A stretch of 64,000 bases of DNA, taken from contig NZ_CP063808.1 in the NCBI RefSeq assembly GCF_018128905.1, forward strand, positions 1,798,001 through 1,862,000, given 5' to 3'. A program made the translations under genes and the position numbers. The notes below the pieces were generated by a model. The model saw nothing but the letters and a program-made list of their open reading frames with translations. It was not told the DNA's origin and searched no databases. Of the stretch, positions 20,924-48,224 are shown in pieces. Every line of letters starts with the position of its first letter. Positions within the stretch are counted from its first letter, which is position 1. The stretch is from Streptomyces sp. A2-16. GTDB lineage: Bacteria; Actinomycetota; Actinomycetes; Streptomycetales; Streptomycetaceae.

Positions 20924-20965
20924 ATGCGCACCCGAATTCTCGTACTTGGAAAGCGCGTCGGCTGA
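20924..20965 (+). CDS. ilvB leader peptide (attenuator)
   Basis: A 13-codon ORF, MRTRILVLGKRVG, with GGGGGGAGGG ending about 10 bases before the ATG. Four consecutive control codons read Ile-Leu-Val-Leu, written ATT CTC GTA CTT. ATT, GTA and CTT are all rare in this GC-rich genome, which would sharpen ribosome stalling when branched-chain aminoacyl-tRNA is short. It is followed at once by a hairpin and then a U-rich terminator ahead of ilvB, the classical arrangement of ribosome-mediated attenuation. Similar leaders are known before ilvB in other actinobacteria. Confidence 0.85.
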   Translation: MRTRILVLGKRVG

Positions 20966-20989
20966 CGCTGAGCCACAGACCGCTCAGCG
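20966..20989 (+). promoter_or_regulatory. Leader hairpin of the ilvB attenuator
   Basis: An 8-bp perfect stem (20966-20973 with 20982-20989) and 8-base loop start directly after the leader peptide stop codon. Its position suits a pause or protector hairpin that a translating ribosome would disrupt. The exact antiterminator partner was not resolved by eye. Confidence 0.6.
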
Positions 20990-21007
20990 ATCCCCACCCG
21001 GCGCGCT

Positions 21008-21041
21008 CCCCTCGCTTGCCTTATGGCACGAGGGGTTTTTT
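21008..21041 (+). terminator. Rho-independent terminator of the ilvB attenuator
   Basis: A 7-bp stem (21008-21014 with 21029-21035), extended by an inner 4-bp stem (21017-21020 with 21025-21028) past a 2-base bulge, is followed by six T. Such a U tract is unusual in Streptomyces. It sits 51 bases before the ilvB ATG, so it can only act on the leader transcript. Confidence 0.85.
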
Positions 21042-45095: not shown

Positions 45096-46310
45096 ATGCA
45101 CAGCAAGAAGCACCTGGCAGCCGCGCTCCTGGCGGTGCTCGCCGCCGCGGCCCTCACGGGTCCCGCGGCGAGCGCCGCACCCAGGGCCGCGTACACCGAG
45201 CCGGTCAGCGTCACCCCGGAGGGGAAGGCGGGCAACGGCGTCACCCGCACCGCGGTCATCAGCCGCGACGGCCGCCACCTCGCCCTGACCTCGGACGCCG
45301 AGGACCTGGACCCGAACGTGCCGCACAGCGGCATGTACCTGCGCGACCCGCACACCGGCAAGCTCCGCTTCGCGGGCTTCGGCGGCCTGGTGGCGGTCCT
45401 GAACGACGGCCGCTACGTCTACGCCCAGTACACCGCGGAGTCCGCGGAGCTGTGGATCGCCGCCATCGACACGGGCAAGCGGGTCGGGTTCGGCCTCGAG
45501 GTCCCCGAGGGCTTCACCGGGCAGCCCGCCGGGATCTCCGTCAGCCCCAACGGCCGCTACGCCGTCTACACCCTCCAGGACGCCACCGAGCACACCAGCG
45601 TGGTCTTCCTGCGCGACCGCATCAAGGGCACCACCGAGCGGATCAGTCACCCCCGGCCCACCTGGGAGCCGCGCAACGCGTTCCAGCCGACGGTCAGCGA
45701 CGACGGACGCCGGATCGTCTACCAGTACAACTACGCCAACGGCCCGCGTGGCGACGACTGGGGCGACGTGTGGATGTACGACCGCGGCACGCGCGAGCAC
45801 ACCCAGATCGACCGCTCCCACGACGGCTCGCAGACCGAGAAGGAGTCGCTGAACCCGTCGATCAGTGGTGACGGCCGTACGGTCGTCTTCGAGTCCCGGG
45901 ACACCCACCTGGTGCCCGGCGACACCGACGCGAGCTGGAACGTGTTCGTGCACACCGTCCGCACCGGCACCAACCAGCGCATCCACGGCACCCAGGGCGG
46001 CCCCGGCGAGGTCTACACCCGGGGCGCGGCGATCAGCGCCGACAGCCGGTACCTCACGTTCACGTCGGAGGTGACCGAGGCCGGCAGCCGGTACGGCAAG
46101 GAGTACCCCGTCTATCTGCGGGACCTGAGGAAGGGCACGACGACTCTCGTCACCCCCGACACCACCGGCGGCACCGCGACGGCCGACGTCCTGCCGGGCC
46201 GGATCGCCGACGGCGCCCGCAGGATCCTCTTCCAGTCCTCCGACCCGACCCTGATCCCGGCAGGCGACGACAACGACGGCACCGACGCGTTCGTACGCCA
46301 CCTGCGATGA
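45096..46310 (+). CDS. Secreted beta-propeller protein 3
   Basis: A 404-residue protein. A clear signal peptide (MHSKKHLAAALLAVLAAAAL, cleaved after ASA near residue 29) is followed by one propeller with ISRDGRHLALTSDAEDLDPN, VSPNGRYAVYTLQD, VSDDGRRIVYQYNY and ISGDGRTVVFESRDTHLVPG. ATG 45096 is chosen because CGGGGGAAC lies directly before it; an in-frame ATG at 45066 overlaps the previous stop. It diverges most from the other two and lacks the STAADG opening. A strong terminator follows. Confidence 0.8.
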   Translation: MHSKKHLAAALLAVLAAAALTGPAASAAPRAAYTEPVSVTPEGKAGNGVTRTAVISRDGRHLALTSDAEDLDPNVPHSGMYLRDPHTGKLRFAGFGGLVAVLNDGRYVYAQYTAESAELWIAAIDTGKRVGFGLEVPEGFTGQPAGISVSPNGRYAVYTLQDATEHTSVVFLRDRIKGTTERISHPRPTWEPRNAFQPTVSDDGRRIVYQYNYANGPRGDDWGDVWMYDRGTREHTQIDRSHDGSQTEKESLNPSISGDGRTVVFESRDTHLVPGDTDASWNVFVHTVRTGTNQRIHGTQGGPGEVYTRGAAISADSRYLTFTSEVTEAGSRYGKEYPVYLRDLRKGTTTLVTPDTTGGTATADVLPGRIADGARRILFQSSDPTLIPAGDDNDGTDAFVRHLR

Positions 46311-46343
46311 CCAGCACAGTGTTCGCATCCTGAGACGGAGGGT

Positions 46344-46382
46344 GAGCACGGGGGTGGTCTGTGCCAGACTGCCCCCGTGCTC
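46344..46382 (+). terminator. Terminator after the beta-propeller operon
   Basis: A perfect 11-bp outer stem (46344-46354 with 46372-46382) encloses an inner GTCTG/CAGAC stem. It lies 33 bases after the third propeller gene and 9 bases before the cimA leader peptide, so the cimA promoter must overlap or precede it. Confidence 0.75.
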
Positions 46383-46391
46383 TCGTTCGCC

Positions 46392-46427
46392 ATGATTATT
46401 GGCAGCAGGCGCGCCGGTCCGCAGTGA
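46392..46427 (+). CDS. cimA leader peptide with tandem Ile codons (attenuator)
   Basis: An 11-codon ORF, MIIGSRRAGPQ. Codons 2 and 3 are both ATT, an isoleucine codon rarely used in this genome. It lies 192 bases before cimA and 55 bases before a Rho-independent terminator. CimA starts isoleucine synthesis from pyruvate, so stalling at Ile codons would be a direct end-product sensor. There is no ribosome site before the ATG; the message may be leaderless. Confidence 0.7.
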   Translation: MIIGSRRAGPQ

Positions 46428-46482
46428 CCGCCACGTACGACCAGGTACGGGTGGACACCGTCGTCCTCGACCCGCGCGCAGA

Positions 46483-46507
46483 CCTCTCGCACCCGCGAGG
46501 GGTTTTT
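46483..46507 (+). terminator. Rho-independent terminator in the cimA leader
   Basis: An 8-bp stem (46483-46490 with 46495-46502, one G-U pair) with a 4-base loop is followed by TTTTT and, after CGC, TTTT. It is 113 bases before the cimA ATG. Together with the Ile-codon leader it forms a probable attenuator. A competing hairpin at about 46431-46454 pairs CCAC/GTAC with GTAC/GTGG. Confidence 0.8.
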
Positions 46508-46619
46508 CGCTTTTCTGGCCCACCCGCAGCCGGAGGCGAGAGCGCGAGGGAGTATGTGGGGGCGGTGGAGCCGGTCATTCCGGTACGACCGAGACCAAAT
46601 CCTCAGGAGCCTTGAGACC

Positions 46620-48224
46620 ATGACCGCAACCAGCGAGCTCGACGATCAGTTCCACGTCTTCGACACCACCCTGCGCGACGGCGCCCAGCGGGAGGGCATC
46701 AATCTGACCGTCGCGGACAAGCTGGCCATCGCGCGGCACCTGGACGACTTCGGCGTGGGCTTCATCGAGGGCGGCTGGCCCGGCGCCAACCCGCGGGACA
46801 CCGAGTTCTTCGCCCGCGCCCGTCAGGAGATCGACTTCAAGCACGCCCAGCTCGTCGCCTTCGGCGCGACCCGCCGGGCGGGCGCGAAGGCCTCCGAGGA
46901 CCCGCAGGTCAAGGCACTCCTGGACTCCGGCGCCGAGGTGATCACCCTGGTCGCCAAGTCGCACGACCGCCATGTCGAGCTGGCGCTCAGGACGACCCTC
47001 GACGAGAACCTGGAGATGGTCCGCGACACGGTGTCCCACCTGCGTGAGCAGGGCCGCCGCGTCTTCGTCGACTGCGAGCACTTCTTCGACGGCTACCGCG
47101 CGAACCCCGAGTACGCGAAGGCCGTCGTACGGACGGCCTCGGAGGCCGGCGCCGCCGTCGTCATCCTCTGCGACACCAACGGCGGCATGCTCCCGGCGCA
47201 GATCCAGGCAGTGGTGTCGACCGTGCTGGCCGACACCGGCGCCCGCCTCGGCATCCACGCCCAGGACGACACGGGCTGCGCGGTCGCCAACACCCTCGCC
47301 GCCGTGGACGCGGGCGCGACCCACGTCCAGTGCACGGCGAACGGCTACGGCGAGCGCGTCGGCAACGCGAACCTGTTCCCGGTCGTCGCCGCCCTGGAGC
47401 TGAAGTACGGCAAGAAGGTGCTGCCGGACGGCAAGCTCCGCGAGATGACGAGGATCTCGCACGCCATCGCCGAGGTCGTCAACCTCACGCCCTCCACCCA
47501 CCAGCCCTATGTCGGAGTCTCCGCCTTCGCCCACAAGGCCGGTCTGCACGCCTCGGCGATCAAGGTCGACCCGGACCTGTACCAGCACATCGACCCCGAG
47601 CAGGTCGGCAACACCATGCGGATGCTGGTCTCCGACATGGCGGGCCGCGCCTCGATCGAGCTCAAGGGCAAGGAACTCGGCATCGACCTCGGCGGCGACC
47701 GCGAGCTGGTCGGCCGGGTCGTGGAGCGCGTGAAGGAGCGCGAGCTCAAGGGCTACACCTACGAGGCGGCGGACGCCTCCTTCGAGCTGCTGCTGCGCGG
47801 CGAGGTCGAGGGCAGGCCCCTGAAGTACTTCACGGTCGAGTCCTGGCGCGCGATCGTCGAGGACCGCCCCGACGGCAGCCACGCCAACGAGGCCACGGTC
47901 AAGCTCTTCGCCAAGGGCGAGCGCATCGTCGCCACCGCGGAGGGCAACGGCCCGGTCAACGCCCTCGACCGCACCCTGCGCGTGGCCCTGGAGAAGATCT
48001 ACCCCCAGCTCGCCAAGCTCGACCTCGTCGACTACAAGGTCCGCATCCTCGAAGGGGTCCACGGCACCTCGTCCACCACCCGTGTCCTGATCTCCACGTC
48101 GGACGGTTCGGGCGAGTGGTCGACGGTGGGCGTCGCGGAGAACGTGATCGCGGCGTCCTGGCAGGCCCTGGAGGACGCGTACACCTATGGTCTGCTGCGC
48201 GCGGGCGTCGAGCCGGCCGAGTAG
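46620..48224 (+). CDS. cimA: Citramalate synthase
   Basis: A 534-residue DRE-TIM metallolyase of the CimA type. It condenses pyruvate and acetyl-CoA to (R)-citramalate, giving 2-oxobutyrate for isoleucine without threonine deaminase. N-terminal HVFDTTLRDGAQREGINLTV and FIEGGWPGANPRDTEFF are hallmarks of the citramalate rather than isopropylmalate branch. HAQDDTGCAVANTLAAVDAG holds metal ligands. The C-terminal LeuA-type dimerisation/allosteric domain begins near residue 410. ATG 46620 has AGGAG 10 bases upstream. The product name is confident; specificity against homologous isopropylmalate activity is inferred from motifs and the Ile leader. Confidence 0.92.
   Translation: MTATSELDDQFHVFDTTLRDGAQREGINLTVADKLAIARHLDDFGVGFIEGGWPGANPRDTEFFARARQEIDFKHAQLVAFGATRRAGAKASEDPQVKALLDSGAEVITLVAKSHDRHVELALRTTLDENLEMVRDTVSHLREQGRRVFVDCEHFFDGYRANPEYAKAVVRTASEAGAAVVILCDTNGGMLPAQIQAVVSTVLADTGARLGIHAQDDTGCAVANTLAAVDAGATHVQCTANGYGERVGNANLFPVVAALELKYGKKVLPDGKLREMTRISHAIAEVVNLTPSTHQPYVGVSAFAHKAGLHASAIKVDPDLYQHIDPEQVGNTMRMLVSDMAGRASIELKGKELGIDLGGDRELVGRVVERVKERELKGYTYEAADASFELLLRGEVEGRPLKYFTVESWRAIVEDRPDGSHANEATVKLFAKGERIVATAEGNGPVNALDRTLRVALEKIYPQLAKLDLVDYKVRILEGVHGTSSTTRVLISTSDGSGEWSTVGVAENVIAASWQALEDAYTYGLLRAGVEPAE

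Follow-up and report, generated by a model that had tools for sequence, protein, structure and literature searches.

A candidate isoleucine-responsive attenuator upstream of the citramalate synthase gene cimA in Streptomyces and other Actinomycetia

Results

The cimA locus and its leader

We analysed a 64,000-nt stretch of the 9.8-Mb genome of Streptomyces sp. A2-16 (NZ_CP063808.1, positions 1,798,001-1,862,000, forward strand; hereafter the window). The putative regulated gene is cimA, whose product, citramalate synthase, is the entry to the threonine-independent route to isoleucine. Its assignment, which agrees with the gene named downstream of the element in an earlier reading made from the sequence alone, rests on TIGR00977 (cut-off, 450 bits; Table 1), and a cimA match was present in all 121 sampled genomes of the genus Streptomyces. 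An upstream ORF on the same strand ends at 46310, and the leader features described below lie between this point and cimA. Many Streptomyces also share a conserved GGAGCCGGTCATTCCGGTA between the terminator and cimA (46556-46580 in the window), which contains a small hairpin, CCGG-TCATT-CCGG.

Table 1 Features of the cimA leader region and of the ilvB leader in the same window
Feature	Position	Strand	Basis or remark
Conserved box CGCATCCTGAGAC, ~-53 to -41 from the presumed transcription start	46324..46336	+	genus alignment
-10-like hexamer CAGACT, 6 nt before the leader GTG	46365..46370	+	hexamer and spacing conserved in genus
Leader ORF VLSFAMIIGSRRAGPQ, GTG start, TGA stop, probably leaderless	46377..46427	+	start swap and kept frame, 89/89
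Control codons ATT ATT	46395..46400	+	first ATT invariant in genus; class-wide Ile codons
P1, 5' strand GCGCGCCGGTC	46409..46419	+	invariant in genus; covaries in class
P2 hairpin inside P1, sequence variable	46428..46454	+	compensatory changes within genus; mostly absent outside
P1, 3' strand GACCCGCGCGC	46469..46479	+	genus conservation; class covariation
Intrinsic terminator hairpin and T tract, abutting P1 directly	46480..46507	+	fold, terminator scan, covariation
Probable cimA ribosome binding site AGGAG	46605..46609	+	sequence; CAGGAG conserved in genus alignment
cimA, citramalate synthase, putative regulated gene	46620..48224	+	TIGR00977, 636 bits
ilvB leader MRTRILVLGKRVG region	20924-21041		stem 20953-21006, abutting terminator 21008-21041

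Comparison of the upstream regions of cimA from 89 Streptomyces genomes showed that the leader ORF, its first ATT, P1 and the terminator are kept in every one of them. The sequence-only reading had begun a short ORF at the ATG at 46392 (46392-46427: ATG ATT ATT GGC AGC AGG CGC GCC GGT CCG CAG TGA) and had called its two ATT codons rare. Both codons are indeed present in an ORF, and ATT is rare locally, accounting for none of the 60 Ile codons in three long ORFs of the window. The proposed start fared less well: this ATG is replaced in 16 of the 89 genomes (ACG in 14, GCG and AGC in one each) and thus cannot be the general start of the leader. The start codon further upstream, at 46377, is GTG in 86 genomes and ATG in three, and it precedes the ATT by 18 or 21 nt, always in frame (89/89). 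Judging from this pattern, the leader probably starts at GTG 46377, on an mRNA that is leaderless from that GTG; leaderless leaders of a like kind have been described in S. lividans (PMC8079986).

The earlier reading had also looked to conservation of the ATT codons and of the hairpin. The first Ile codon is ATT throughout the genus (89/89), whereas the second is ATT in only 60 genomes, being replaced by ATC in 20, ATG in 8 and ACG in one; the hairpin is conserved in 89/89, and conserved hairpins were found in the cimA-associated matches outside the genus as well. In a subset of Streptomyces, the loss of a single base downstream of the Ile codons gives a peptide ending in SSAPVRSDR or similar, as against SRRAGPQ, and the ORF closes at another nearby stop. 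The nucleotides GCGCGCCGGTC are kept even though the frame is shifted, which indicates that RNA, not peptide, is conserved after the Ile codons.

Structure of the leader RNA and putative promoter

The two strands of P1 form ten pairs and one C.C mismatch. This second stem had been left out of the device as first described, of which the ORF and the terminator stand. The terminator, AGACCTCTCGC-ACCC-GCGAGGGGTTT followed by the T tract, lies ~110 nt upstream of the cimA start. A terminator scan returned two overlapping matches at this site against 0.1 expected in shuffles, in agreement with the Rho-independent terminator and U tract noted there before, and the folding z-score of 46370-46520 was -3.1, with none of 200 shuffles equally stable. 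Across Streptomyces, P1 and the terminator are invariant or nearly so and P2 covaries. No further exact copy of the terminator was found elsewhere in the genome, and a search of Rfam, including the T-box and ilvB motifs, gave no match at gathering score and only sub-threshold chance matches. Pairing of CTCTCG at the leader start with the 3' arm of the terminator is possible in the window; this candidate was rejected, the bases being changed, by inspection, in divergent relatives.

Upstream of the leader, the -10-like hexamer is usually separated by 6 nt from the GTG or ATG in the Streptomyces genomes. The conserved box CGCATCCTGAGAC, judging from its alignment, is a possible candidate for an activator site. 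Two more exact copies of it are present elsewhere in the genome, of which one lies upstream of a guaA-like gene (L093, near 1501-1513). NdgR was considered as its owner and rejected: the box does not fit the published motif, and cimA is absent among the NdgR targets listed in the available part of the source.

Distribution outside Streptomyces

A covariance model built from 31 leaders matched 132 of 297 Actinomycetia genomes and 60 of 114 genera (both counts include Streptomyces), usually once per genome. Sixty matches from other genera were retrieved, and cimA lies shortly downstream in 54 of them. Among the remaining six, three are followed by acetolactate synthase (L148, L186 and L188) and one (L187) appears spurious. 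At L164 and L181 the element, with the Ile-run leaders MFTPRIII* and MFALVIIM*, precedes the gene of a small protein that matches the ACT domain weakly, short of the curated cut-off; this protein is possibly an unrecognised branched-chain gene product.

In each of the 54 cimA leaders outside Streptomyces, an in-frame Ile codon lies 9-15 nt upstream of the base at which P1 begins, mostly 11-14 nt and in the majority of leaders 11 or 12 nt. The codon occurs in several reading-frame registers, usually as one of two or three in a row, and the codons of the run vary (ATT, ATC) across the class; examples of the peptides are VQRTAIIIP*, MSFWMIII*, VLHHVIIIR and VLSTSIIIN. The stop codon is found anywhere between 4 nt upstream and 23 nt downstream of that same base. 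With the one distance narrow and the other scattered, it follows that the spacing of codon and stem is better kept than the position of the stop.

Because the covariance model includes ORF columns, its matches are somewhat biased towards Ile codons. As a control for this bias, 80 genomes that the model had missed were searched; cimA was present in 51, and 30 loci were read. An Ile-run leader, a stem and a terminator are seen at nine of these 30 (L189, L192, L193, L196, L197, L204, L208, L214 and L216); the combination was not found at the other loci read, among them those sampled from families f18 and f25. The regions upstream of cimA in f18 (L191, L194, L195, L198, L199, L205 and L209), which are without an Ile leader, have in common another conserved stretch, GGCGGCGAACC..CGTCGCGCG..CCGGTC..GACCGGGCGCGTG, which on its sequence is perhaps a different regulatory RNA.

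In the class alignment of P1 and the terminator, 95% of cells are paired, a value favoured by the fitting of the alignment to the model's structure (slid controls, 33-56%), and both-sided changes occur in 26 of 39 pairs; covariation of the observed extent was reached in none of 500 shuffles. The four basal pairs of P1 (GCGC) are unchanged in 64/64 sequences, and upper P1 and most terminator pairs vary with compensation. From the end of P1 to the CC of the terminator arm the distance is 3 nt in 55 of the 64, and in nearly all sequences P1 and the terminator adjoin without common bases.

Discussion

Relation to known leaders

The same window contains an ilvB leader (Table 1), whose peptide MRTRILVLGKRVG is identical to that of S. 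lividans and whose control codons are positioned 17, 14, 11 and 8 nt ahead of the stem. Since its layout and geometry are the same, the cimA leader appears to extend a known kind of attenuator to a new target. The ilvB and ilvBNC attenuators, namely Streptomyces ilvL MRTRILVLGKRVG (PMC8079986), the Corynebacterium ilvB-II motif (PMC10272879) and the three-hairpin model of C. glutamicum (PMC11857589), have a (near-)leaderless uORF with branched-chain codons and a stem abutting a terminator. The cimA element shares this layout, with the base of its stem adjoining that of the terminator and control codons ~8-17 nt before the stem, and differs in its target and in having isoleucine codons only. 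For C. glutamicum ilvBNC, the adjacent antiterminator and terminator hairpins have been proposed, from mutational data, to compete at their bases (PMC11857589). That model includes a GCC trinucleotide common to antiterminator and terminator, whereas there is none such in P1 and the terminator of cimA; the cimA element resembles the C. glutamicum device without being identical to it.

More distant systems show partial likeness. The trp, his and ilvGMEDA leaders of E. coli likewise combine control codons for the end product, an intrinsic terminator and a stem placed relative to the stalled ribosome or the stop; unlike in these, no strong antiterminator overlapping a terminator arm was found at cimA. 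In the LEU element upstream of actinobacterial leuA, a uORF with many codons for the product amino acid likewise precedes a related synthase gene, but this element is described as a pseudoknot pairing with the Shine-Dalgarno box (PMC1262725), whereas the one at cimA carries an intrinsic terminator. The actinobacterial ileS T-box responds to isoleucine, the signal proposed for cimA, but binds tRNA directly and without a leader peptide (PMC1262725), and the cimA element matches no T-box. Seliverstov et al. (2005; PMC1262725) described actinobacterial elements of ilvB, leuA, leuS, trp, cys and ileS, with cimA not among them, and cimA is absent from a list of eight leaders obtained by RNA-seq in S. 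lividans (PMC8079986). Consistent with the earlier statement that attenuation of cimA was not known to be described, no attenuator or leader peptide of cimA or citramalate synthase was found in the open-access literature. Judging from its sequence, the element is best described as a new addition to the actinomycete attenuators of branched-chain genes, isoleucine being its signal and cimA a new target.

Proposed mechanism

Conservation of the first ATT codon and the hairpin in 89/89 Streptomyces, together with an Ile codon at a near-fixed distance from the conserved hairpins in 54/54 leaders outside the genus, lends support to the isoleucine-codon attenuator that the sequence-only reading had proposed. 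We consider the cimA leader very probably an Ile-responsive attenuator, and it is likely to act as a ribosome-mediated transcription attenuator through which isoleucine supply would set cimA expression.

A ribosome whose A site is occupied by a hungry codon shields ~12 nt past the codon's first base. With charged tRNA-Ile plentiful, the ribosome would reach the stop codon and cover the 5' strand of P1 (at least its first 8-9 nt), the terminator would form and cimA would not be transcribed. With charged tRNA-Ile short, it would pause on the Ile codon, its leading edge just short of P1, which would then fold; from an Ile codon 11-14 nt upstream P1 should be just free, and a ribosome stalled on a further Ile codon 6-9 nt from P1, where there is one, would overlap the base of the stem. 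In E. coli trp, the 5' strand of the antiterminator is free when the ribosome is stalled and covered by the ribosome at the stop codon. P1 is read as an antiterminator because its 5' strand would behave in the same way, a role to which we give an even chance. Once folded, P1 would antiterminate through competition between its base and the terminator directly beside it. Equilibrium folding cannot decide the role of P1, since the terminator had P > 0.99 in every ribosome state tried; the proposed switch is thus not seen thermodynamically, which counts against the model. We put forward more tentatively, as a possibility that falls short of an even chance, that the element is a class-wide Ile attenuator whose antiterminator has no bases in common with the terminator, the GC-clamped stem obstructing the terminator near the RNA exit channel and the position of the ribosome, at the Ile or the stop codon, gating the stem.

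Alternative explanations

An Ile attenuator could also be built with P1 as a protector (1:2). Here the stalled ribosome would block P1, and the freed P1 3' strand (GCGcAG) would pair with the terminator 5' arm (CTCGC) in a short 2:3 antiterminator. This would be a classical layout, the window does contain a short GCG-CGC-GCG complementarity, and folding with P1 masked predicts a small 2:3 hairpin. At ~-1 to -7 kcal/mol in the short leaders, compared to ~-18 for the terminator, that hairpin is weak, however, and its pairing shows no co-adaptation, cognate pairs being weaker than swapped ones (permutation p = 1.0). Moreover, by the computed geometry and the commonly assumed footprint size, the Ile codon is far enough from P1 that a stalled ribosome should leave P1 mostly free. 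We therefore regard a protector role of P1 as rather unlikely.

The near-invariance of the P1 base and the terminator within Streptomyces might instead point to a conserved RNA (P1, P2 and terminator) that is sensed by a protein or a small ligand, with the ORF incidental or merely helping. Changes of the ilvB leader codons in S. coelicolor were reportedly without effect in older work cited in PMC1262725, and this report is also our main reason for caution on codon sensing. Against such sensing stand the in-frame Ile codon present in all 54 class cimA leaders, with varied codons at a near-constant distance from P1, the start codon and frame kept in Streptomyces, and the lack of a match in Rfam, so that we judge it improbable.

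That the hairpin is a mere terminator of the upstream gene, whose ORF ends on the same strand at 46310, with a short ORF present by chance, is very improbable, given the class-wide link of the element to cimA, the fixed spacing of ORF, P1 and terminator, and the conserved -10-like hexamer between the upstream ORF and the leader.

Significance

The open-access literature yielded no description of RNA-level control of cimA in actinomycetes that produce antibiotics, and a tiny Ile-codon ORF with a terminator stands before cimA in a large share of actinomycetes. Results on ilvB are contradictory as to how attenuators with abutting hairpins work; the roughly one hundred natural variants of the cimA leader form a comparative set that bears on this question in actinobacteria. 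The element is also a ready target for strain engineering, both for isoleucine and for the branched-chain precursors of polyketides and lipids.
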